This document shows, piece by piece, positions 163 to 33,435 of a DNA stretch of 37,774 nucleotides. The translations under genes were made by a program, and so were the position numbers. Positions within the stretch are counted from its first letter, which is position 1. Every line of letters begins with the position of its first letter. The notes under the pieces are model-generated. The model was given only the letters and a program-made list of their open reading frames with translations, was not told the DNA's origin and did no database searches. This stretch comes from a virus: positions 1 to 37,774 of the IMG/VR virus record IMGVR_UViG_3300021197_001001; one strand, written 5' to 3'.

Positions 163-1542
163 TTAAGATTTATTTTCTTTTTGTTTCCTTTTTTCAAGAA
201 GTTCACGGATTCTTTCTTTGTTTTTCTCCTCCTTTTGTTCTTCAAGACCAAGGAACGTAACACTTTGTTCAGTATCAATTTCTAACATCTCATTATCAAA
301 CTTACAGTTTTCAAATACAATTCCGTCTTTACCAATACGTGACTTAGTAATCGCAATAGTCGCCAAATTCATTTCTTTTTGTTGTAATGATTTTGCCACT
401 GAGATAATTACGTGACCTACTTGTGCCTTTTTAATTGAACCCCCCATTTGGTCTGTTGTGACAACCTCAGAAGAAATAGAGCTTCTATTACCCTGAGTGG
501 CGGTCCATCCAACTAAGTTCAATTCGTGACACATAGACTCGAAACCTCTCATAACCGAACCTTCACTTTTCCATTCATCCCCTAAGTTCTTATCTGGAAC
601 TACACAATCAATGTAATCTAAAACGACTAAATCAATTTTAGTCCCTTCAGCAGTCATCTTACGAATCTGATTTTTAATCTGATTCATTGTTAGTGTATCT
701 GATGGTAGTTTTTTAAGAACTAACTTATTTGGAGCATTTTCTCTGATTTCTTGAACTTTACTTAGTACTTTGTCTTTATGCATTGACAATAAATCGGGTG
801 CAATTTCAGTCCATAGAGTAAAATGTTTCCTTTGAATAATTTTAGGATTGTCTTCAAAGAAAATTTGAAGAACATTATATCCTAAGTTGAATGCGTGATT
901 TGAAATCTTTGTGAGGAAAGTGGATTTACCAACTCCTGTTGGTGCCAGTATAACCCCTATTTCTCCTTTTGCCATCCCACCTTTAAGTAGGTTGTCGATA
1001 CCTGGTATTCCCATAGGTATTGGGTGTCTGAAGTCTTCTTCGAGTACCTCTTCAAGGTTAGCAAAAACCTCAGCGGTACCCATGTCTACTTCCCCGACTT
1101 GTAAAGCTTCTCTCACCATTTCTTCCAAATGGTCATAAGATTCAAAATCACCTTTATCAATGATTTTTTGAGCCTTAGACATAACCTTCTGAAGTTCTTG
1201 TTGTTTACAAAACTTAAGAGCCTTTTCCTGAACGAAGGATTCTCCTCCCTCAGGGGCTTCTTTAACTTGTTCTAACATATCAAGAACCATCTTCTGAGCC
1301 ATAGGAGATGAGACTTCTGACTTAATAAGTTGTTCAAGGGTATTATATGAAGGTGTATGTTCATACTTCTGATAATACTCCTTTAGGACTTGCATAATCA
1401 ACTTAAAATACTGATTATCAAAGTATTTAGGTTCAATCACATCAACAATAGAAGTCGCAAAGTCCTTATAAAGAACGATGTTGTTTAATAACTGAATTTG
1501 AAATGTGTTTCCGAGATAACCGAAATTTTTTTCCTTCGACAT
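163..1542 (-). CDS. 41: Replicative DNA helicase, T4 gp41 / DnaB-like
   Basis: A 459-residue hexameric replicative helicase of the T4 gp41/DnaB class, expected to unwind the fork 5'-3' on the lagging strand with the polymerase and SSB of this window. The RecA-type ATPase domain starts near residue 190. Walker A is LAPTGVGKST (about 198-207), Walker B is the VVLDYID segment, and near the C-terminus KSRIGKDG follows the GSIKKAQVGH stretch and carries the arginine that usually acts as the finger in this family. The N-terminal 150 residues are helical, matching the DnaB N-terminal collar. Length is close to T4 gp41 (about 475). It starts with ATG in an A-rich leader without Shine-Dalgarno. It follows the 151-residue gene by 40 bases and has its own ATATTTAT motif 30 bases upstream. 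No primase gene is seen beside it. Confidence 0.92.
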   Translation of the reverse strand: MSKEKNFGYLGNTFQIQLLNNIVLYKDFATSIVDVIEPKYFDNQYFKLIMQVLKEYYQKYEHTPSYNTLEQLIKSEVSSPMAQKMVLDMLEQVKEAPEGGESFVQEKALKFCKQQELQKVMSKAQKIIDKGDFESYDHLEEMVREALQVGEVDMGTAEVFANLEEVLEEDFRHPIPMGIPGIDNLLKGGMAKGEIGVILAPTGVGKSTFLTKISNHAFNLGYNVLQIFFEDNPKIIQRKHFTLWTEIAPDLLSMHKDKVLSKVQEIRENAPNKLVLKKLPSDTLTMNQIKNQIRKMTAEGTKIDLVVLDYIDCVVPDKNLGDEWKSEGSVMRGFESMCHELNLVGWTATQGNRSSISSEVVTTDQMGGSIKKAQVGHVIISVAKSLQQKEMNLATIAITKSRIGKDGIVFENCKFDNEMLEIDTEQSVTFLGLEEQKEEKNKERIRELLEKRKQKENKS

Positions 1543-1572
1543 GCTAATTGTGATTACTAATAATGTGTCTTA

Positions 1573-1580
1573 ATAAATAT
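1573..1580 (-). promoter_or_regulatory. ATATTTAT promoter-like motif before helicase gene
   Basis: Reads ATATTTAT on the minus strand, 30 bases before the helicase ATG and just past the stop of the preceding gene. It is one of ten sense-oriented copies in the window. This is the only copy in front of a replication gene. Promoter function is inferred from recurrence and position only. Confidence 0.4.
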
Positions 1581-1582
1581 AT

Positions 1583-2038
1583 TCAAGAAAGGGTATATTC
1601 CATATAATTCTGTGTCAATTTGTCAGAAGAAAAAACTTCAGTCAAGGACTTCAGAATGGACTTTAAATGAGGTCTTACATCAACCGTGTACCTAATCTTT
1701 GGTGGATATCTCTTTCCGTCCCATCCTCGATGCATGATAACTTCGTCGTTATACTTAACATATATGTTAAATACCTCGTCATCATCGGTCATAGATGTTT
1801 CTAAAATTTTAGGGTCGGACATAATTTGATATTGATTCTCCAACATATACCAAACTGTTTTAGCTTTCAAATCACCGTGAATTCTCATATATATGTCATT
1901 AACTGATTCAGCTAATTCAATACTATTTTTAGCCTCTCCGTTAAATCCTTTGACATTGTAGTACCTCTGTACAATAATATTGTCATTCAACGTGAGTAGA
2001 AACTCCATCTTAGTAATGTCATTCTTTTCTTTACTCAT
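1583..2038 (-). CDS. Conserved-looking phage protein of unknown function in replication operon
   Basis: A 151-residue acidic, soluble protein without membrane segments or a signal peptide. I do not recognise a catalytic motif. It opens MSKEKND and carries a hydrophobic strand-like start (MEFLLTLNDNIIVQRYY), a helical middle with LKAKTVWYMLENQY, and a C-terminal half with IRYTVDVRPHLKSIL. Similar short openings ('MEFLLTLN..IICQRYF') occur, from memory, in hypothetical proteins of marine T4-like phages. It lies 13 bases after the 5' nuclease stop and ahead of the helicase, so a role at the fork (loader or accessory factor, the positional equivalent of T4 gp59) is possible, but I see no sequence support for gp59. 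Start: ATG after a run of As (AAAAAAACAAAAAAATG). Confidence 0.8.
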   Translation of the reverse strand: MSKEKNDITKMEFLLTLNDNIIVQRYYNVKGFNGEAKNSIELAESVNDIYMRIHGDLKAKTVWYMLENQYQIMSDPKILETSMTDDDEVFNIYVKYNDEVIMHRGWDGKRYPPKIRYTVDVRPHLKSILKSLTEVFSSDKLTQNYMEYTLS

Positions 2039-2051
2039 TTTTTTGTTTTTT

Positions 2052-3062
2052 TTAATTAGTTTTTCTAAATCTTCTTTTTTCTTTTCTTGTAAGTTTCATA
2101 AAAGGTGTCAAGAAATACACCCATGCGTTGTCTGTTTTAGGTAAGTACTTAAAAATTCCGTCTTCCATCATCATTCTCATAAGATTTTGATATCCCCGAC
2201 CTTCAGGGTCAATATCTTCTTTATAATATAATTCCACGAGTGACCTCGCTTCATCCGTTAACAAAGGTAAGGATAAATCCACTAAACTTTTATTAATAAC
2301 ATAGAATTCTTCACCGTACACCCCTCTTTTTGTTTTACCCGATAGTAAATTCTGTAAGGCTCTGTTGTCTTTGTCATTTTCGTGTAGTTGTTCACCTTTC
2401 TGTAAAATATCGTCAACACTAACTACAGAATCAACTATCTCAGGAAAAAGTTTTACAAATGTCTTTTCTCCAAAATAATATATTCCGTCAATATTATCAG
2501 ACTTATCTCCTGATATTATTTTAAATGTTGTGACGTTCTGATGAGGTATTGAAATATCTTTAAGTTTCACCTTATCACCAAACTTAATCATTTGTTTTTG
2601 AGTCGGTGTATAAACTTGTACCTTTTCAGAAATAAGTTGTGTCAAATCTTTATCTGCAGAAAATATAGTTTTATTTTCATCTTCGGATATTTGACAGTAG
2701 TATGCAATCATGTCATCAGATTCATTCCCATCAACTACAACCTGACGTATAAACATCTCTTCCAAATATTCTTTTACCCTCTTTTGTTGCCAATTGAAGG
2801 ATTGTTTTTGAATATCATTTAGTCTGTTATATCTTCGATTTTCTTTATACTCAGGAAATATTTTCTTCCTTTGGTTCGAGTTGTCGTTACCGTCCCAAAA
2901 AACAATAACCTTATCGTAGTTGTACTCAGATATAAAACGTCTAATAGTATTCACAAAATGGTAAATCCCACCTATATGATTACCCTTATGGTAATATTCC
3001 CGAACACCATGATATCCAATCTTAAATAGATTGTTACCGTCTACTAATAAAGTTTTTGTCAC
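2052..3062 (-). CDS. rnh: 5'-3' exonuclease / flap nuclease, T4 RNase H-like
   Basis: A 336-residue nuclease of the FEN/5'-exonuclease family, as in T4 RNase H, which removes RNA primers and flaps from lagging-strand fragments. The two-metal acidic site is complete: D8 in LLVDGNN, D57 in VFWDG, E114/D116/D117 in ESDD, D137/D139 in SADKD, and D186/D189 in the SGDKSDNIDGI helix-hairpin-helix region. A basic arch-like stretch (QRKKIFPEYKENRR, 64-77) matches the 'PEYKxxR' signature. Length equals the family norm (T4 305). The start is GTG at 3062 (GTGACAAAAACT), preceded by a run of eight As and no Shine-Dalgarno. It lies ten bases after the uvsX stop, so it is cotranscribed with the recombinase. 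Confidence 0.9.
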   Translation of the reverse strand: MTKTLLVDGNNLFKIGYHGVREYYHKGNHIGGIYHFVNTIRRFISEYNYDKVIVFWDGNDNSNQRKKIFPEYKENRRYNRLNDIQKQSFNWQQKRVKEYLEEMFIRQVVVDGNESDDMIAYYCQISEDENKTIFSADKDLTQLISEKVQVYTPTQKQMIKFGDKVKLKDISIPHQNVTTFKIISGDKSDNIDGIYYFGEKTFVKLFPEIVDSVVSVDDILQKGEQLHENDKDNRALQNLLSGKTKRGVYGEEFYVINKSLVDLSLPLLTDEARSLVELYYKEDIDPEGRGYQNLMRMMMEDGIFKYLPKTDNAWVYFLTPFMKLTRKEKRRFRKTN

Positions 3063-3072
3063 TTTTTTTTAC

Positions 3073-4077
3073 TTATACGGTTACACTATCTTCTTCCAAC
3101 TTGTAGTCACTACCCGTCCCGATAATATCTTTCCAATACTCAGAATGTTCTGCCTTGTATTTTTCAATGGACTTTTTCTCTTCTGTAGAGTCTTTACCCG
3201 CCAAGAATCCATGTGCGGTTACAAGAATTCTACCATCCTCATATCCTAATCCATTAATGTGGTTTTTCATTACCGAAACTTTTGTTCGACTAGCGAACTT
3301 TACTTTTCTCTTATCTTTAACTGCAGTAATCTTAGTAGTACCTGCGTTTTTTTGATTACCAAACAAGAAAACCATTGAGGAGTTCAACCATATTGCCTCT
3401 CCTCCTTTAGCCTTAATCTTAGGTTGTCCGAAAGGATTGTCGGGAAGTTCAACCCACGGTTGATTAACAATAACCAAAGTATTTTCGTGTTTAGAGTCTG
3501 ACCTGCGTGAGCCTGAGATTCTTTGGTTGATACCCATTCCGATTTTATCGGCAAGTACTGCCGCGTTGTGTTGTTTACCTCCTTTACCATCATAGGTCAT
3601 CTTACAGGGTACAGAACCCACAGAATCCCAAAGGAACAAAAGGTCGTAATCTAAATCCCCTTTCTCTTGTGCATCCAACAAAGAGTTAATGTAGTCAGTA
3701 ATTTGTTCGATATATTCAAAATTATTGTTGAAGATAAAGAATCCGTCCCAATCCAATTCACCTGTTTCTTCGTCTACCACCTCTTCACATTCAAAACCCA
3801 TAAGTTTCGCGTGGTCAAATGACCATTTTTGTTCAGTTATAATAAATACAGGGAGAACATCTCTTTTTTGAGCGTCAACCGCAGCTTTAACCAATGCAGT
3901 TGTTTTACCTGTGTCTGAATGACCCAAGAACATATTAAGATGGCCCATAGCCGGTCCTGGTACTCCTACCGCGTCCAAAAAATCAGTACCTAAGTCATAG
4001 AATCTTTGTGGTTTGAATTTGGCTGAAGAAGAGAACTGCTTCTTTATGTCTTTAAATGATTTTTTCTTAATTGCCAT
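3073..4077 (-). CDS. uvsX: UvsX recombinase (RecA-like)
   Basis: A 334-residue strand-exchange recombinase that forms filaments on single-stranded DNA for recombination-dependent replication and repair. The N-terminal helix (KKKSFKDIKKQF) is followed by GVPGPAMGHLNMF and Walker A GHSDTGKT (52-59). Walker B is LLFLWDSVGSV, and LVIVNQPWV lies at the DNA-binding loop region. The C-terminus is acidic (KLEEDSVTV). Length is somewhat below T4 UvsX (about 390). The ATG directly abuts the TAA of the upstream methyltransferase gene (TTATAAATG), so no leader of its own remains and translation must be coupled. Codons 3-9 lie in an exact 21-base repeat shared with that gene. Confidence 0.93.
   Translation of the reverse strand: MAIKKKSFKDIKKQFSSSAKFKPQRFYDLGTDFLDAVGVPGPAMGHLNMFLGHSDTGKTTALVKAAVDAQKRDVLPVFIITEQKWSFDHAKLMGFECEEVVDEETGELDWDGFFIFNNNFEYIEQITDYINSLLDAQEKGDLDYDLLFLWDSVGSVPCKMTYDGKGGKQHNAAVLADKIGMGINQRISGSRRSDSKHENTLVIVNQPWVELPDNPFGQPKIKAKGGEAIWLNSSMVFLFGNQKNAGTTKITAVKDKRKVKFASRTKVSVMKNHINGLGYEDGRILVTAHGFLAGKDSTEEKKSIEKYKAEHSEYWKDIIGTGSDYKLEEDSVTV
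4049..4069. repeat. 21-base direct repeat, copy at uvsX start
   Basis: Exact 21-base copy of 4727-4747, lying at the same distance (6 bases) inside the start codon of uvsX as the other copy lies inside the methyltransferase gene. Both encode KKKSFK plus an aspartate or glutamate and isoleucine. The offset between copies is 678 bases, exactly the length of the methyltransferase ORF with its stop. Confidence 0.95.
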
Positions 4078-22350: not shown

Positions 22351-23199
22351 TTATACTTCTAGTTTATCACCTCCTTTAGTTAAATAAGTTTTTACTGGGC
22401 TTTCTTCATATTCTTTATCTAAAAACTTTTTTATAGATTCTATATTACCTGGGTCATCATCAGAAAAACCAATTAAAGGAACAAAATTATTCTTTACGTC
22501 ATTAGTAAATGTTACTTTTTGTCCTAGTTTTTGGCTTTGATATTTAACATAGTTAATAAATTCTCTTAAAGCTTTTATTTTACCTTCTTCGGGATTAGAT
22601 GCGGAACCTTCACCATAGGTTACAGGATGGTACTTACACATATCTAAATATTCTTTGATTAGTAATTGGTCGTCTTTTAGGACCTCCCCTGACAAATCTC
22701 GATACTTTTTAAGATTCTCTATAAGTGTTTGTGCGTTAATCCCATTATGATTTGTGACAATCATATTGTAGATGGATTCTTTTAAAACAGATGGTGTATG
22801 ACCCCTAGCGGTTATGATTGCAAAAATAGAACCCCCATTTATACATTCTACAAAATCACTCCATGACGGTCCTGGTTCGGCTAACATAGAGTCGACAATA
22901 AATCTTTTATCACCTTCCACACCGAAGTTCCTATAAGGATTTTCTGAGTATCCAACAATTGTTTCCCCATTATATTCAAAAGGTTGTCCTCCTATTTTTT
23001 GTCTATATTCCGCAAAATCTTCTGTAGACATACCTACTTCATGACCATCATCAGAAACTAACATAATTTGAGTAGGCATAGTTACGATATTATCGTCCCA
23101 ATCAAAAGCGTAGTACTTATGGTCGGGATTACCGTCTTCTATACCTTCTGTAACTATAATGTTATTAAGGTTTTTCCTAATAATCTGTTTTAAACTCAT
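22351..23199 (-). CDS. HAD-superfamily phosphatase-like protein with leader peptide
   Basis: A 282-residue protein of the haloacid dehalogenase fold. Motif I is YAFDWDDNIV with nucleophile D33 and acid D35, motif II is IITARGHT (about 130-137), and motif IV is IGFSDDDPGNIESIKKFL near 250. A cap-like region lies between motifs I and II. This is the phosphohydrolase arrangement; the substrate cannot be read from sequence. Residues 1-18 (MSLKQIIRKNLNNIIVTE) precede the domain and resemble leaders on other proteins here. It sits between sheath and tube, so a virion-associated enzyme is plausible. No ATATTTAT precedes it; it starts 4 bases after the 45-residue gene. The 5'-to-3' end of the unit is more AT-rich (23% G+C in the block at 22381) than the sheath gene. 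Confidence 0.82.
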   Translation of the reverse strand: MSLKQIIRKNLNNIIVTEGIEDGNPDHKYYAFDWDDNIVTMPTQIMLVSDDGHEVGMSTEDFAEYRQKIGGQPFEYNGETIVGYSENPYRNFGVEGDKRFIVDSMLAEPGPSWSDFVECINGGSIFAIITARGHTPSVLKESIYNMIVTNHNGINAQTLIENLKKYRDLSGEVLKDDQLLIKEYLDMCKYHPVTYGEGSASNPEEGKIKALREFINYVKYQSQKLGQKVTFTNDVKNNFVPLIGFSDDDPGNIESIKKFLDKEYEESPVKTYLTKGGDKLEV

Positions 23200-23416: not shown

Positions 23417-26400
23417 TCAGATATCTTCAAATGATGCACCTGTTGGTGTGATTAAGAATTCGATATCAATGAATTCTAACGCTCTCGTCGGTTTCAGATA
23501 AATTTTACCTACCAAGGTATTGTTATCTAAATCCTCAGGAGTGTTCTGAACTACGACTCTAAAGTCGATTAAACCTCTATCTCTTCTGATAGAATCTAAG
23601 ATTGGGTTTACTGAATCCAAGAACTCTTGTCTTACTTGGTCGTCATTTTGTTCGAACAATAGTCTTACCGCGACCGCTGAAATTAACTTACGAGCTTGTA
23701 ATAACAATCTTCTAACGTTAATTCTATCGAGAGCTGACTCTTTAACTTGAGTAGTTTTGTTACCCCAAATTACAGTTCCCACATCTGAGAAAGTCGCAAT
23801 CGGGTTAATTCTACCCTTGTACAGGATATCCCTATCGTCTTGAGTTAACTTCTTACGTGCTTTAATACCGTTAACCAAACCTCTTGTATAACCCGCTGAC
23901 GCGAACCAAGGGAATGCGATATTATCAGTTAACGCTAAGTTTCTAACAACCTCTGCGGTTGGGGGTAGGTATACCTGTGTATTATTAACAGTATCTCTTG
24001 TTAAAATCCATGGGTAGTAAGTTGCCGTATAGTTAGAATCGATACCCGTATCTTCTAAATTTTCAGTAGATTCTTGTGGGTAAATAAAGTTACCTGTAAA
24101 GTCTGAAGTTGTATTAACAAACATATTATAATCAGGAGTTGTACAAATATAAACTGAATCTGCTCTATCAGTTTCAATCATATCAATAGCCTCCTCGACT
24201 AAGTTTGAGTTGTTAACATAATCCACACCTGGTGTCGTAAATACATTTATGTTTACCGCTTCAGGGTTTACAAATGTAGACTGACCCCATAAGTAAGCGT
24301 AGTAGTCAGTATTACCCCAATCTTGTTTGTCAGGACCAGTTATTGTCTTAAATGCTCCCCATCCTGTTGCGGTTGGGAATCTTATGGACGTCGCAGCTCC
24401 TTTGAGATAACCACTATTACCTAATATGTATCTATCTCCGTTAGTACGATATTCTCTATATATATCCCATCCATCAAAACCACCTGTGGGTATTAATGTA
24501 AATTTACGTGAATTTAATCTATAGTATGGTGATGTGTCACCTGGTTCACTTCTAAACGACGCATCTCCAACTTCGAACGCAGTTTCACCTGAAGTAGTCC
24601 ATTGACTTGAGATTGTTATTACAGTAGCCCCTGAATCCATGTGGAATCCTTTAGTTAATACCGCCCATGGTGATGATTCAGTTGCAGTTGCTAAGTCAGT
24701 AGGGTTTTGTTTACCTTTGTAAGACGCAAAATCAACATCGATACCAACAGTATTTGACACACCCAAATAAACTCTTCTTGGGTTATCACCTGAACTTCTC
24801 GTTACATTATCACCTCCCTGTGTTCCGAATGGTGGGTTAGCAATAACTTCACCTGGTGTGTTATACTTTGTCTTATATATTAGATGAGGTGACTTATAAT
24901 TTTTATACTGTCTCGTTTGATAACCTCTAAATCCACATGGTAAAGAGTCGATGGGTGCTTCTTCATTAATCTCTAACATTATGTAACGAGATTTTAATTC
25001 GAAGTCTCCATTTGCGGTACCTACTTTTTTAGCCACAAAACTATTAAGATTTGGGTCCATTGTACAGTTTGTAAATTTCTCTAAGACTACAGGACTTGAG
25101 TCAGTGTCATAAAAATCTCTTACGACTATATCGAAGGTTAAATTATTGAACGAAATATTCGCGATGGATACTTTTATTTCTCTGTTTGCACCACTACCGT
25201 CTGAAATTGAGATGAACTTGAATAGGTTAAATACCTCATTACCTCTTAATTCAGAAACTACAAATGGAGTGAACGGTGTTTGGTATCTATCTAAATACCA
25301 ACCGATACCTGTGTTATCTGTGTCTGTTCTAGCACCATTAAATGGTAATAAATCGGTATTTAATCCTCTGATTTTACCCTGTCTATAACCTGTATTTAAT
25401 AAGTTATAATAAAGTTCTCCCACCATTAAAGGTACATCGTTTCTATCTTTACCAAAGTTAGATTGTCCCAATACCTTACTTAAGAAATTAGGGTCACTTA
25501 ATGTGAAAGAAGTGTCGAAAGTAAACGTTTCTGAATCACTAGTTATACCTGATAACTGGAAGGTCGCAAATGGATTGTTTGTAATTCCTGAATACGCCGC
25601 TGTACTATTAATAGTAACATCAGTTAAACCTGATACTTCATATACTGGTCCATCGTCATTACTATACGTTGAAATACCTCTTGAACGTAATGTTGAAATC
25701 ACCATGTTATGGTAATCAGTAATTACAGTGCCTGAGTAAGTTGTGTCATAAACAACCGCCGTACCCGTATAGTTATTACCTGACGTATTTGTAAGACCTG
25801 TAACGATTAGACCGAAACCTACACCTGAGTAGTCTTGGTCTGTAGAATCGTATGGGAATAAAGAGTAATACCAAGAATCATTTTCGGATGCTTCAAAATC
25901 TGCGGTGTCGATAGTTAATCCGTCAACGCTAAGTACATTAGTACTACCTGTCCAATTTGACGTTCCTGTAATTGTGTCGTAGGTTCCTCCACTTACCGTA
26001 CCGAACATATAAGCAGTTTTACCTGAGTTTGATGGGTCTACTATATCTTTATAAAGACTTGTTTTAAAATCGTCTTCAATTGTACTCACTCCTCCACTAA
26101 ATGTAGTGTAAGGTAATGAGAAGTAATTTTCAATATATGATGGTAAATCACTATAATTAGTGATTGTTGTCGACGCACTAGTTCCTGATACACCACTGAA
26201 AGTTACCGTAAACGGACCTGCATTACCTGTACCGACTACGGTGTCTTTTTTAAGATTACCTACGGTTGATATTGACCAAGCCGGTCCCGCGTCATAACCT
26301 GACAAACCAAGTATACGAGTTACAAAAAGTTGATTTGATTGTTGTAAATATGCCTTAGCAATGTATGCTGCTTCATATTTTGGAATCTGAGTGTTTATAA

Positions 26401-26593
26401 ATTTGGTTGGGCTTGTACCGCCAAAATATGCAGTGAACTCATCGAAGTTTGTTATAAAAATGGGCTCAAACGCAGGACCTGACTGAGTTTCACCAACAAT
26501 ACCTAATGTAGTTACACCAACACTTTGAGCTACAAAACTTAAATCTCTTTCTGATGTATATACACCTGGAGATACGAATACTTTGTCTGCCAT
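23417..26593 (-). CDS. 18: Contractile tail sheath protein, T4 gp18-like
   Basis: A 1058-residue sheath subunit. The conserved N-terminal block is VSPGVYTSERDLS, GVTTLGIVGETQSGPAFEP and FGG..PTKFIN. The conserved C-terminal block (about 860-1058) has NNTQVYLPPTAEVVRNLALTDN, the GVNGIK-like LVNGIKARKKLTQDDRDILYKGRINP, AVRLLFEQNDD and KPTRALEFIDIEFLI. Between them, at about 125-560, lies a Thr/Ser/Gly-rich beta insertion (TSGNNYTGTAVVYD and similar) that makes the protein some 400 residues longer than T4 gp18 (659). Surface-exposed insertions are known in sheath proteins and could decorate the tail. Starts with ATG after AAAACTAATTAAT, no Shine-Dalgarno, with ATATTTAT 34 bases upstream and a terminator downstream. 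Confidence 0.93.
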   Translation of the reverse strand: MADKVFVSPGVYTSERDLSFVAQSVGVTTLGIVGETQSGPAFEPIFITNFDEFTAYFGGTSPTKFINTQIPKYEAAYIAKAYLQQSNQLFVTRILGLSGYDAGPAWSISTVGNLKKDTVVGTGNAGPFTVTFSGVSGTSASTTITNYSDLPSYIENYFSLPYTTFSGGVSTIEDDFKTSLYKDIVDPSNSGKTAYMFGTVSGGTYDTITGTSNWTGSTNVLSVDGLTIDTADFEASENDSWYYSLFPYDSTDQDYSGVGFGLIVTGLTNTSGNNYTGTAVVYDTTYSGTVITDYHNMVISTLRSRGISTYSNDDGPVYEVSGLTDVTINSTAAYSGITNNPFATFQLSGITSDSETFTFDTSFTLSDPNFLSKVLGQSNFGKDRNDVPLMVGELYYNLLNTGYRQGKIRGLNTDLLPFNGARTDTDNTGIGWYLDRYQTPFTPFVVSELRGNEVFNLFKFISISDGSGANREIKVSIANISFNNLTFDIVVRDFYDTDSSPVVLEKFTNCTMDPNLNSFVAKKVGTANGDFELKSRYIMLEINEEAPIDSLPCGFRGYQTRQYKNYKSPHLIYKTKYNTPGEVIANPPFGTQGGDNVTRSSGDNPRRVYLGVSNTVGIDVDFASYKGKQNPTDLATATESSPWAVLTKGFHMDSGATVITISSQWTTSGETAFEVGDASFRSEPGDTSPYYRLNSRKFTLIPTGGFDGWDIYREYRTNGDRYILGNSGYLKGAATSIRFPTATGWGAFKTITGPDKQDWGNTDYYAYLWGQSTFVNPEAVNINVFTTPGVDYVNNSNLVEEAIDMIETDRADSVYICTTPDYNMFVNTTSDFTGNFIYPQESTENLEDTGIDSNYTATYYPWILTRDTVNNTQVYLPPTAEVVRNLALTDNIAFPWFASAGYTRGLVNGIKARKKLTQDDRDILYKGRINPIATFSDVGTVIWGNKTTQVKESALDRINVRRLLLQARKLISAVAVRLLFEQNDDQVRQEFLDSVNPILDSIRRDRGLIDFRVVVQNTPEDLDNNTLVGKIYLKPTRALEFIDIEFLITPTGASFEDI

Positions 26594-28929: not shown

Positions 28930-30714
28930 TTGTTATCTTTAAGTGTATTTACTCACGTATTGGAAAATAAAACATTAAACAACTTACCTGAAGTAAGGGC
29001 TCTACGTATTCTTGAAGAATACAGTGGATACAATAACTACATCTTAAATCTTAAGGTTAAAATGAATAAATTTAATCATTTTAAGTTAACGAGAGCACAG
29101 TCTGACTACATATTAAAATTTAATAAAGTAGTCCCTAAGATAGCTAGAAGATGGGTTGAGTTAGATAGTTATTTCGCACAAAAACTAATGGACGACAAAC
29201 TTCTAACCAAAAAGCCCGAAAAAATTTATATAGAAAAACTTTTAGTAGAAAAAGAAAAGTCATACCACATATGGGGGAAACTTTTTGAAAAGGAGGAGCT
29301 TTCAAGTATATGGTTACCGAGGGTGGCCCTTCAAAAAAATAGACAAAGAGAAGTAAACATAGACTATGAAAAATATAGTCATAGACCCCCACTATCTCAT
29401 CAGATAGAGTCTATAGAGAAATTAGTAGGTAACGACAAGTATATACTGGCAGATGACATGGGTCTTGGTAAAACAACATCAACTGTAATAGCTTCTTTAG
29501 AAAATGATTCTGAAAAGGTTTTGATTATATGTCCCGCTTCGTTAAAAATAAATTGGCAGAGAGAGATTGAAAATTACACTGATAAGGACATATCAATTAT
29601 TGACGGTAAAAAGTGGGAGCCTTCAGATTATACAATAATAAATTATGATATTCTCAAGAACTTTCACGACCCAAAACACCCTGATAAATCAGACATTTTA
29701 AATTACGGTTTTGATTTGGTTGTAATGGACGAAGCTCATTATATACAAAATGTTAAAGCAGCAAGAACAAAAATTGCAAATAACATCGCAAAAAAGGTTG
29801 GGAAAGTTTGGTTATTAACGGGTACTCCGATGACTTCGAGACCAATGAACTACTACAATCTTTTAGATTTAGTTGATTCACCCGTCGCCGAAAATTGGAT
29901 GGCTTACGCTATAAGGTATTGTGCGGGATATCAATTCAATGTCGGGGCTAAAAAAGTTTGGAACGTGTCAGGCTCTTCTAATCTTGAGGAGTTACGAGAC
30001 CGAACAAAACCACAGGTTTTGAGAAGGTTGAAGGAAGACATTTTAGATTTACCTGAAAAGATTATAACTCCTGTTTATTTAAAATTAAAATCTAAGGAGT
30101 ACGAAAAATTAATGGGAGAATACTATGATTGGTATAACTCATCAGAAGAGTCTACATCACTAACGATACAATTCTCCAAGTTAATGAAAGTGAGGCAAGT
30201 AATCGCTGAAAGTAAAATAAAAAATACGATTGAGGTTGCTCAAAACATAATAGACCAAGGAAAAAAGGTTATTATCTTTACTAATTTCACTGACACTCTT
30301 AATAAGATTACCGACCATTTTGGTAAATCTGCAGTTAAGCTTGACGGTAAAATGTCAAAACCTCAGAGACAAAACTCCGTTGATGAATTTCAGAACAACG
30401 AAAAAATAAATGTTTTTGTAGGAAATTTAAAAGCGGCTGGTGTTGGTATAACATTAACCGCGGCAGAGGCGGTAATAATGAACGACCTATCTTTTGTCCC
30501 ATCAGACCACTCTCAAGCAGAAGACAGAGCATATAGATACGGACAAAAATTTTCGGTATCGGTTTACTACCCTATTTTTGAGAATTCTATAGAAGGAGTT
30601 ATATATAACATACTCAACAAAAAGAAAAATATTTTTGAGACAGTTATGGGTGATAATGAAGGAAAGGGTGACGTAATGGAAGAAATACTGAATATGATTT
30701 CAGAAAAAAGATGA
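28930..30714 (+). CDS. SNF2-type DNA helicase/translocase
   Basis: A 594-residue superfamily 2 ATPase. Motif I is LADDMGLGKTT (about 173-183), II is VVMDEAHYIQN (DEAH), III LLTGTPMTS, IV-V KKVIIFTNFTDTLNKI and FVGNLKAAGVGITLTAAEAVI, and VI QAEDRAYRYGQ (about 529-539). The motif VI wording and the arrangement fit the SNF2 group, close to SMARCAL1/annealing-helicase types, so ATP-driven translocation on double-stranded DNA, fork reversal or strand annealing is likely; T4 UvsW is a functional parallel. The N-terminal 140 residues are a separate domain (NNLPEVRALRILEEYSGYNNYILNLKVK). There is no ATG: a stop at 28915 is followed only by TTG at 28930 or 28960 before the conserved region, so the exact start is uncertain. 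Confidence 0.88.
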   Translation: MLSLSVFTHVLENKTLNNLPEVRALRILEEYSGYNNYILNLKVKMNKFNHFKLTRAQSDYILKFNKVVPKIARRWVELDSYFAQKLMDDKLLTKKPEKIYIEKLLVEKEKSYHIWGKLFEKEELSSIWLPRVALQKNRQREVNIDYEKYSHRPPLSHQIESIEKLVGNDKYILADDMGLGKTTSTVIASLENDSEKVLIICPASLKINWQREIENYTDKDISIIDGKKWEPSDYTIINYDILKNFHDPKHPDKSDILNYGFDLVVMDEAHYIQNVKAARTKIANNIAKKVGKVWLLTGTPMTSRPMNYYNLLDLVDSPVAENWMAYAIRYCAGYQFNVGAKKVWNVSGSSNLEELRDRTKPQVLRRLKEDILDLPEKIITPVYLKLKSKEYEKLMGEYYDWYNSSEESTSLTIQFSKLMKVRQVIAESKIKNTIEVAQNIIDQGKKVIIFTNFTDTLNKITDHFGKSAVKLDGKMSKPQRQNSVDEFQNNEKINVFVGNLKAAGVGITLTAAEAVIMNDLSFVPSDHSQAEDRAYRYGQKFSVSVYYPIFENSIEGVIYNILNKKKNIFETVMGDNEGKGDVMEEILNMISEKR

Positions 30715-30732: not shown

Positions 30733-30740
30733 TTATTTAT
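30733..30740 (+). promoter_or_regulatory. TTATTTAT promoter-like motif before SOD-nuclease fusion
   Basis: Plus-strand TTATTTATAG, one base from the ATATTTAT form, 14 bases before the ATG at 30755, the same spacing as before several virion genes. It suggests expression with virion genes rather than with the helicase upstream. Confidence 0.4.
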
Positions 30741-30754
30741 AGATAAAATAAATT

Positions 30755-32302
30755 ATGGGAACTAAGTCAAAAATAGAAAAAATACGAGAGATAGAAACCC
30801 GTATTATTACTGAAAAAATCGGTAGTAAGTTACCCAAAAAAATAATTAAAGAGATGAAAAAAATAGGAATTGAAAGGTTACCTTATTCTTATTCAGCCGT
30901 TGAGCGTTTTATAGATAAAGAAACTATGGACGTTCATTACAACAAACACTACAAAGGTTATGTTGAAAAACTTAACAAAGCGATTAAAGATAAGAAAGGT
31001 AAAGAGAAGAGTCTCGAAGACATTGTAAAAACAATATCAAGGTATGACTACACGGTCAAAAATAATGCAGGAGGGGCGTTTAACCACGCGTTATTTTGGA
31101 AGATGTTAAGTCCAAAAAAACAAAGGTGTTCGGGAGAGATATATGAAAAAATACTTAAAGACTTTAAAACTTTTAATAATTTTAAAAAACAATTTGAGTC
31201 TGTCGCACAAAAAAGGTTTGGTTCAGGATGGGTTTGGTTAGTTTTAACCAAAAATAATCGATTAAAAATAATGTCGACCCCAAATCAGGATAACCCACTT
31301 ATGAACACAATAAAAGGAGGTGGGTTCCCATTATTAGGTTTAGATTTATGGGAACACTCATATTATCTTAAATATAAAAATAAAAAAGACGATTATATTA
31401 AGAACTTTTGGTCTGTAGTAAATTGGTCATTTGTGAATGACTTATATAACAGTCAAAATAAAAAAACCTTAACTGAATCGGTGAGACCCAAGGAATTGCT
31501 GGTCGAGTCTGAAAGTTCGGGATGCTCATCGAGGGACGTGAAAGAAACCATCGATTTATTCAATAAAAACCCAAGGATAAAATGGTCCTATAGAAAGGCA
31601 ATAGATGAAATCTTTAAAGAAATGTTTAAAGATTTTTGGAGAGAAAAACAAGGAGACCAACTATCAGGTATTTATGATTTTGAATATGAAGGTGTCGTAG
31701 AACCAGGAAGGTCAGTTCTAAATAAGATTAATACCAACGCAACGACTTTTTGTCTATTAATGAATGATATGAACAAGGTGTTAAAGTATTACGGTCACCA
31801 ACCGATTAGTTTCAAAGGTAAAAACGAAAGTCAACAAATAAAAGAAGTCTATAGATTTATAGGTTATATAAGAAATTTTAAAACAAGATTATTTGGACAC
31901 GCGTCAAAAACGTTAACGAATATGTATAAAACTGTTAATAGAAGACACAGACAAGGTGATAGAACGGAACAAAATTCTGTTAAACTTTTAAATAAGATTT
32001 TTGGTGACGGAAATGTAAAACAAGTTGGTGAGATGGGTAGTGTTGTCGATGCAATTGGTGGAGTTGATGCGGTGATAAGAACACCTGAAGGTGATAAAAC
32101 CGCACAAATAAAACCATTTAAGTATTATAAGGAGGACGATGGTAAAATCATTATGTTTGATACGGGAGTTATAAAACCCTATAAAACCGATTGGTTAGTT
32201 TTCCATAATAACAAAAAGGGTGTGATGGTATTCGATAATAGTAATACTGAGATAATTGGGGGTAGGTACGTCTTTAATAAAGAGGATTTATATAATACTT
32301 AA
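30755..32302 (+). CDS. Manganese superoxide dismutase domain fused to a PD-(D/E)XK-like nuclease domain
   Basis: A 515-residue two-domain protein. Residues 1-20 are a charged leader ending RIITE. Residues 42-233 are an Fe/Mn superoxide dismutase: LPYSYSAVE, ligand H61 and H65 in HYNKHYKGYV with Y69, GGAFNHALFW (H111), FGSGWVWLV, NQDNPL (Q178), and LDLWEHSYY (D197, H201). The GG before NH and the Gln in NQD are Mn-type features. All four metal ligands are present, so the enzyme should convert superoxide to peroxide and oxygen. Residues 234-255 form a linker with LTE-S (239-242) and LVE-S (249-252). The C-terminal 260 residues contain an E near 404, GGVDAVI (D about 437) and AQIKPF (Q-I-K about 450-452), spaced like a PD-(D/E)XK nuclease core with Gln for the second acid. 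I know of no such fusion in phages. Confidence 0.88.
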   Translation: MGTKSKIEKIREIETRIITEKIGSKLPKKIIKEMKKIGIERLPYSYSAVERFIDKETMDVHYNKHYKGYVEKLNKAIKDKKGKEKSLEDIVKTISRYDYTVKNNAGGAFNHALFWKMLSPKKQRCSGEIYEKILKDFKTFNNFKKQFESVAQKRFGSGWVWLVLTKNNRLKIMSTPNQDNPLMNTIKGGGFPLLGLDLWEHSYYLKYKNKKDDYIKNFWSVVNWSFVNDLYNSQNKKTLTESVRPKELLVESESSGCSSRDVKETIDLFNKNPRIKWSYRKAIDEIFKEMFKDFWREKQGDQLSGIYDFEYEGVVEPGRSVLNKINTNATTFCLLMNDMNKVLKYYGHQPISFKGKNESQQIKEVYRFIGYIRNFKTRLFGHASKTLTNMYKTVNRRHRQGDRTEQNSVKLLNKIFGDGNVKQVGEMGSVVDAIGGVDAVIRTPEGDKTAQIKPFKYYKEDDGKIIMFDTGVIKPYKTDWLVFHNNKKGVMVFDNSNTEIIGGRYVFNKEDLYNT

Positions 32303-32309
32303 TATTTAT
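32302..32309 (+). promoter_or_regulatory. ATATTTAT promoter-like motif before gp13-like gene
   Basis: Plus-strand AATATTTATAATAAAAAGG, 13 bases before the ATG at 32323; it starts on the last base of the preceding stop. AAAAAGG just after it is one of the few Shine-Dalgarno-like stretches in the window. Confidence 0.45.
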
Positions 32310-32322
32310 AATAAAAAGGTAT

Positions 32323-33435
32323 ATGTCTGCAATAACTGAACCACAAAGAAGTAAACTATTTACTAGGATAAAACATCTACTAGGTGCACCTATAAGAGGT
32401 GTTGAGATAACCGATGAGATGATGGACTCACTATTAGAGTTGTCCATACAGGATTACGCTCAATATGTTAATGATTGGTTAATAGAATCACAATGGACCT
32501 CGTTATATGGTTTAAATTTAGATGAACAGTCATTAACTAGAGCATTTATTAGTCGAAGTTTAGACTGGGAAACTCAGTATACTTACGCATATTCTAAGAT
32601 TGTGGGACTTCAAGCGGGGGGTGACTCCGTTTTGAAGAAAGATTATATTGATTTGGTTGCAGGACAACAGATTTATGAAATACCCAAAGGAAGAGAATTA
32701 AATGAACTTTTATGGTTTAGTCGAGCAGAATTAGACGCCGCTTATTTTGACCCATTTATGGGTGGATTTGGTGGTTTTGGTGGAGGAGGTTTAGGTGGTG
32801 GCGCTGGTTTTTCACAAATGGGTACTACAGGAAATTATTTTATAACTCCCGCTTTCGATATCTTATTAAGAATGCAGGATATTAACATTAAAAGAAGAAT
32901 AATTTCGGGAGAGTTAACATATAGAGTTACCGCACTTCCTAATGGTAAAAAGGCAGTACACCTAATGAACGTACCTGGAGGTAAGTTTGATTTCGGGAAC
33001 CTTGAAAACAATCAATACAAAGTATGGTATTGGTATTACGAAACCGATGATAGGGACTCATGTTTAGCGGAAAACCCTGATATTGTTAGACTTCCTTCAG
33101 ATATTCCGATAGATGAAATGTTATGGGATGAATTAAATAGTCCGGCACAGACATGGGTAAGAAGGTGGTTCACGTCATACGTAAAAGAATCATTAGGTAG
33201 AGTTAGAGGAAAATACCAGGGAAATTTAAAAACGCCTGATTCGGAGATACAATTAGAATACGATTCGTTATTAACAGAATCTAAAGATGAAAAATCTAAA
33301 TTAATTGAAGAATTAACACAGAGATTAGAAAGGTTAAGACCTGACAAAATGATGGAGAGACAGGCAAGTGAGGCTGAAAATTTAAATAAATCATTACAAT
33401 ATAGGGCATTCCCAAGACAGTTTTACTCTATCTAA
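32323..33435 (+). CDS. 13: Neck protein / head-tail adaptor, T4 gp13-like
   Basis: A 370-residue protein. The family pattern is visible: N-terminal helices (FTRIKHLLGAPIRGVEITDEMMDSLLELSIQDYAQYVNDWL), a beta region beginning DLVAGQQIYEIPKGRELNELLWFSR, a late strand LENNQYKVWYWYY, and the C-terminal helical block WVRRWFTSYVKESLGRVRGKY then LTESKDEKSKLIEELTQRLERL. T4 gp13 (309 residues) joins the portal to gp14 in the neck. A Gly/Phe-rich loop (GGFGGFGGGGLGGGAGF, about 148-164) is inserted, absent from T4 gp13. It is on the plus strand, away from the gp14- and gp15-like genes on the minus strand, a split of the T4 13-14-15 block. No Shine-Dalgarno except AAGG ahead of the ATG. Confidence 0.75.
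   Translation: MSAITEPQRSKLFTRIKHLLGAPIRGVEITDEMMDSLLELSIQDYAQYVNDWLIESQWTSLYGLNLDEQSLTRAFISRSLDWETQYTYAYSKIVGLQAGGDSVLKKDYIDLVAGQQIYEIPKGRELNELLWFSRAELDAAYFDPFMGGFGGFGGGGLGGGAGFSQMGTTGNYFITPAFDILLRMQDINIKRRIISGELTYRVTALPNGKKAVHLMNVPGGKFDFGNLENNQYKVWYWYYETDDRDSCLAENPDIVRLPSDIPIDEMLWDELNSPAQTWVRRWFTSYVKESLGRVRGKYQGNLKTPDSEIQLEYDSLLTESKDEKSKLIEELTQRLERLRPDKMMERQASEAENLNKSLQYRAFPRQFYSI

Follow-up and report, generated by a model that had tools for sequence, protein, structure and literature searches.

A superoxide dismutase fused to a predicted nuclease, a putative head-cargo precursor of uncultured T4-like phages

In bacteriophage T4, the prohead protease gp21 cleaves on the C-terminal side of glutamate, and propeptides serve as capsid-targeting sequences (PMC5694885). 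The N-terminus of the T4 head protein Alt is removed at ITE-6 and its C-terminus at LTE-619 (PMC5694885); in the T4 sequence, the residue following LTE-619 is S. The internal proteins IPI-IPIII and Alt have [LI]xE motifs near their N-termini, and Alt has them at both ends. When staphylococcal nuclease was packaged in T4 heads, the DNA was cut once calcium was added (PMC3012670). Superoxide dismutases (SODs) of freshwater phages have also been reported, and interpreted as a defence of the host against reactive oxygen species (PMC6802176). Single-domain Fe/Mn-SODs occur likewise in large phages, namely the jumbo phages of the PA5oct group and Vibrio phage 2.275.O.

The gene described here lies in a 37.8-kb virus record (IMG/VR IMGVR_UViG_3300021197_001001; 37,774 nucleotides), the whole of which is called the window below and which carries T4-like genes for UvsX, a DnaB-like helicase, the tail tube, sheath and hub, and DNA polymerase. 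On its plus strand, a reading frame uninterrupted throughout (30755..32302) encodes a protein of 515 amino acids, in which residues 40-229 make up an intact SOD of the Mn type, followed by a disordered linker and then by a PD-(D/E)XK nuclease. An earlier note made from the sequence had read the protein in these two domains, had proposed a search for the same fusion in other phage genomes and had named a read or assembly error joining two genes as what would overturn the reading. Such an error is ruled out, since the fusion is present at full length in at least 80 other contigs of up to 322 kb, at 42-96% identity, and 135 distinct full fusions are found among the relatives. No named phage record has the fusion, but sequence databases already contain a protein of its size, BFVD A0A6J5L953 (501 aa), which is named only 'superoxide dismutase' and aligns with almost all of the nuclease model.

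The SOD domain (residues 40-233, 30872..31453) matches both Pfam families of Fe/Mn-SODs, PF00081 (Sod_Fe_N, residues 40-119, E 5e-23) and PF02777 (Sod_Fe_C, residues 126-229, E 4e-39). The metal ligands H61, H111, D197 and H201, which together with Y69 had been recognized beforehand as the Fe/Mn-SOD signature, are identical along with Y69 and Q178 across 182 aligned phage SODs, not all of which are independent sequences. The closest solved structures are Mn and Mn/Fe SODs (best E 3.5e-60), and the GG..NH and NQDNP motifs suggest the Mn type. The full domain signature, the metal ligands and the NQDNP motif are common to this domain and to Mn-type Fe/Mn-SODs, and identity to bacterial-type enzymes reaches 47%; the fusion differs from them in adding a disordered leader and partner domains and in its setting in a phage head-tail module. 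The SODs of the PA5oct group and Vibrio phage 2.275.O are just 26-28% identical to the fusion, and the match is confined to the SOD part. The earlier statement that phage SODs are rare is not supported as it stands: in this phage clade, SOD is nearly universal and its gene adjoins that for the neck protein gp13, and SODs had already been reported from freshwater phages (PMC6802176).

The nuclease half (residues 257-515, 31523..32299) consists of a helical region with a GRSVxNxxNTN-type motif and then a PD-(D/E)XK core. An AlphaFold2 (AF2) model of residues 254-515, built from an alignment of 28 sequences, has a pLDDT of 89.5 and a pTM of 0.82; in it, E405 lies within a long helix, D438 directly before a strand, and the QxK pair (Q451 and K453) in the following strand. 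Its best solved matches in Foldseek are Hjc resolvases and the homing enzyme I-Ssp6803I (probability up to 1.0). The E-values are modest (2e-3 to 9e-3), yet the matched entries, unrelated to one another, all belong to a single superfamily, PD-(D/E)XK. The catalytic stretch from E405 to K453 (31967..32113) keeps E405, D438, Q451 and K453 unchanged in 168/168 aligned rows, a homologue from a 735-kb megaphage included. Together with the SOD matches above, these fold matches and the unchanged catalytic set bear out both domains first read from the sequence, and the structure prediction that had been suggested for this half does give a PD-(D/E)XK fold; a chance active-site pattern is ruled out by the same two observations. 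The C-terminal half is a predicted PD-(D/E)XK nuclease, with an alpha/beta core in the model and E, D and QxK in the right elements. It has the predicted fold and the E-D-QxK active site in common with nucleases of the Hjc and I-Ssp6803I type, and differs from them by its additional conserved helical N-terminal region. No convincing family match was obtained for it in Pfam or PHROG, and a profile of this half against the sequences of solved structures gave nothing usable. In phmmer searches of three related genomes, whose proteins include the fusion, no relative of T4 gp4, gp49 or denA was found. As a scan of bacterial genome contigs confirmed no copy, the domain looks virus-only. For the 735-kb megaphage homologue, no synteny with the helicase or gp13 was found, and a viral scan with it as query gave no confirmed relatives.

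In the full-length AF2 model, confidence is very low (pLDDT <50) at residues 1-4, 9-46 and 236-254 only. The first two stretches fall largely within the N-terminal leader (residues 1-39, 30755..30871), which is predicted to be disordered and has an [IL]xE motif at E33 (codon 30851-30853); a targeting role may be suggested for it. The third is exactly the linker (residues 236-254, 31460..31516), the only predicted-disordered stretch between the two enzyme domains. It contains two putative prohead-protease sites, LTE|S at E241 (31475..31477) and LVE|S at E251 (31505..31507), both of which had been noticed before as sites at which such a protease could free the two halves. Over 136 aligned rows, which represent 135 distinct fusions with the window sequence counted twice, glutamate is found in 136/136 rows at E241, in 135/136 at E251 and in 118/136 at E33. 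The sole exception at E251 (L076) has a linker insertion with an ITE of its own. At P3, all 136 rows have L, I, V or M for the E241 site, and the alignment of 28 rows has L or I for the E251 site; the residues around the conserved glutamates are mostly variable. In nearly all fusions, the spacing between E241 and E251 is fixed at 10 residues. Because S follows LTE-619 in T4 Alt, the E241 site of the window (LTE|S) is identical to a gp21 site that has been mapped by experiment.

A gp21-type protease and a capsid protein with a site of the corresponding kind are encoded by the relatives. Genes for gp21 (PF03420) and the capsid protein gp23 co-occur in the same 9 of 20 large related contigs, and these nine are precisely the contigs that extend to the capsid genes; both are known from the relatives' contigs, as that region lies outside the window. 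Their gp23 reads LINE|A near residue 60, and T4 gp23 has LTE|A at 65. The fusion resembles the internal and ejected head proteins of T4 in its [LI]xE cleavage-type motifs and in the presence of gp21 and gp23 in its relatives. The likeness is one of motifs: the fusion is a putative SOD and nuclease cargo that lacks homology to the T4 proteins, and its sites lie also internally, between two enzymes. No match to T4 ipI-III or alt was found by phmmer in the three related genomes, which contain the fusion protein. Conservation, predicted disorder, the T4 precedent, gp21 in the relatives and the loss of the motif in unpartnered SODs together make the linker look suited to a prohead-type protease, as had been supposed.

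The fusion gene lies between a SNF2/UvsW-like DNA helicase gene (28930..30714, plus strand; phrog_62, E 6e-109), a neighbour kept in relatives, and a gene for a gp13-like neck protein, the head-tail adaptor Ad2 (32323..33435, plus strand; phrog_211, E 2e-10), orthologues of which are matched by T4 gp13. This setting recurs in three related genomes, G012, G009 and, without SOD, G001. The 8-mer TATTTATA stands before the fusion gene (30734..30741, plus strand) and again before the gp13 gene (32303..32310, plus strand). In these three genomes, it has 121 upstream occurrences against 8 expected, about 15-fold, and it precedes the terminase, portal, scaffold, sheath, tube and gp13 genes; by analogy with T4, it is probably the late promoter box of the clade. 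The fusion gene shares this element with head and tail genes and may be expressed late along with them. The canonical T4 late box TATAAATA was rejected as the relevant element, being rare upstream of the fusion gene (4/168).

Other features of these genomes were seen in passing. An ORF between the tail sheath and tail tube genes of the window (22351-23199, minus strand), which starts with an IIVTEG leader and contains the HAD-like motif YYAFDWDDN, is kept in G012, G009 and G001. The tail sheath itself (23417-26593, minus strand) is unusually long, 1058 aa in the window and 1189-1195 aa in G009 and G001, and its matches to sheath families lie mainly at the C-terminal end. In the contig L321, the helicase ORF (1474-3843) has an intein-like start (FTPNGRKKIGDLKVGDNVIGSDGK). 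The nearest cultured major capsid proteins include that of Flavobacterium phage immuto, at 39% identity, and several ORFs of G009 start with Bacteroidota-style signal peptides, so that a host among the Bacteroidota is likely.

Among 73 distinct gp13-anchored loci, a sample limited to gp13 identities of at least 67%, 39 have the SOD-nuclease fusion, 31 a SOD without this nuclease, two the nuclease only and one neither, and SOD lies between the helicase and gp13 in 70. The partner at this position may be the nuclease, an HExxH domain, another nuclease or none. Seventeen SODs without a C-terminal partner (L430, 3847-4944; L412, 3837-4940; and 15 others) carry at the N-terminus an extra domain, about 120 aa long and containing HExxH, which reaches no Pfam family above the cut-off and looks like a metallopeptidase. 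By these architectures, SOD is the stable member of the locus and the partner enzyme changes. Scans of IMG/VR gave 168 distinct proteins with the nuclease, of which 135 are fusions with SOD and 33 lack it, proportions that are biased towards the query as the best 80 matches per scan were taken. In a tree built with FastTree only, and without reliance on a split gene that may be a frameshift (L327), SOD was lost independently in one 28-member clade and in three or four single lineages, all nested inside fused proteins. No SOD was found elsewhere in eight contigs of such SOD-less phages.

The linker motif follows these changes. In one relative (L265), SOD and nuclease are two adjacent genes and the tail of SOD reads KINN where fused relatives read KINE; in another (L286), SOD is cleanly excised, with the leader motif on one side of the gap and the second linker motif on the other. 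All 31 SODs without a C-terminal partner keep [LIV]xE immediately before SOD, and a true remnant of the E241 motif (KLNES) is found in just two of them (L440 and L443); a third pattern match (L434) lies within the last helix of SOD. In a protein of 919 aa (L462, 2219-4975), LxE linkers separate three domains, namely SOD, a PD-(D/E)XK-like domain other than the one described here, and an unknown one. Taken together with the SOD losses, these cases indicate that the halves of the fusion are separable and that the linker motif goes with having a partner to release.

The reading that we prefer, at a probability of about 0.6, is that the fusion is a precursor of head cargo, which the prohead protease would cleave and whose products would leave the particle along with the DNA. 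The precursor would be made late, alongside head and tail proteins, and its leader would take it into the prohead core, where a gp21-type protease would cut after [LI]xE at E241 and E251 in the linker and probably at E33 in the leader, freeing the Mn-SOD and the PD-(D/E)XK nuclease in their mature forms inside the head. Both enzymes would then leave the head with the DNA at infection; SOD would remove superoxide around the genome as it enters, or in the newly infected host, and the nuclease would cut or resolve DNA, most likely that of the host or a competitor, or branched phage DNA. This reading is favoured by the invariant E241 and nearly invariant E251 in a predicted-disordered linker, in the same form as T4 gp21 sites; by gp21 and gp23, with its LINE|A, in the nine capsid-reaching contigs; and by the promoter-like element common to the fusion gene and to head and tail genes. 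It is favoured also by the E241 motif being mostly gone without a C-terminal partner while the leader LxE is kept, by the KINN tail, the clean excision of SOD and the LxE linkers of the three-domain protein, and by a paralogous PD-(D/E)XK nuclease of 318 aa in G009 (L197, 118104-119060), which has the leader MKITISE|G and is encoded between the gp21 protease and a scaffold gene.

Several points stand against head cargo. Cutting alone needs no fixed 10-residue spacing, which a scaffold-binding or structural motif could explain; the spacing hints that the linker also binds something, perhaps scaffold. In the P1' position, E33 is mostly followed by M or I, which sets it apart from the majority of T4 sites; Alt, however, has ITE|L. 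In some SOD-less relatives, the site is eroded (LSTE|K, PTE|K). Finally, a packaged nuclease would have to stay inactive, since a free one could damage the phage DNA, as the precedent of staphylococcal nuclease indicates (PMC3012670).

The main rival, though unlikely, is that the nuclease serves late recombination or packaging inside the cell that produces the phage, as a Holliday-junction resolvase or head-completion nuclease, with SOD protecting the DNA or the enzyme and the protein remaining uncut and outside the head. The resolvases among the best structural matches, the UvsW-like helicase and neck gene gp13 as neighbours, the late promoter-like element upstream and the lack of a gp49 or gp4 relative in the phmmer searches of three related genomes all fit this role. 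However, 32 of the 73 gp13-anchored loci (about 44%) are without this nuclease, which is odd for a core packaging enzyme, and neither the constancy of the [LI]xE sites within a disordered linker nor their loss in unpartnered SODs is explained. It is improbable that the gene is of a metabolic type, SOD shielding the infected cell from reactive oxygen and the nuclease being a hitch-hiking partner: freshwater phage SODs are so read in PMC6802176 and the SOD active site is intact here, but the gene has a structural-gene promoter-like element upstream and adjoins gp13 in 70 of the 73 loci, and this explanation gives no account of the leader and linker motifs. That SOD is an oligomerisation or structural scaffold of the nuclease, with no enzymatic role, would suit the fixed linker length and glutamate spacing but is very improbable, as all metal ligands and second-sphere residues are invariant and SOD is found without the nuclease and, after several independent losses, the nuclease without SOD.

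Beyond the fusion itself, dozens of ORFs per genome in G009 and G001 (L191-L225) and in G012 (L176-L190) have leaders such as MKKIIRLTESDLxxIVKRVIxE and MKYLITESKL, and [LI]xE[SGA] is about 2-fold enriched within the first 45 residues of their ORFs. No paper naming such leaders was found; they may be the head-loading signals of a large cargo set. As a tentative extension, to which we give somewhat less than an even chance, SOD may be the fixed core of a modular head-cargo cassette of aquatic T4-like jumbo phages, in which enzymes (the nuclease, a metallopeptidase and a further nuclease) are swapped via prohead-protease sites and which belongs to this larger set with LTES/LITES-type leaders. 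Along with its genome, each virion would then bring an antioxidant and a number of attack enzymes to the cell.

The freshwater SOD genes described previously share with the fusion clade a phage SOD and similar habitats, and a text search of the paper on them found no mention of a fusion, linker sites, a head locus or packaging (PMC6802176). In the open-access literature, no paper was found on the fusion, its linker, the head-module locus or the swapped partners. The fusion is a putative head cargo of the T4 type with new and modular content, and the two conserved protease motifs of its linker suggest that a widespread group of uncultured giant T4-like phages may load both enzymes into the head and release them separately. 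If this is true, a large group of uncultured aquatic phages would deliver SOD and a nuclease inside the particle by way of a polyprotein-like precursor cut by the head protease. Phage SODs would then shift from host-helper genes to parts of the virion, an unnamed nuclease family would gain a setting, and [LI]xE leaders and linkers would be a signal for predicting head-loaded effectors in T4-like phages at large.
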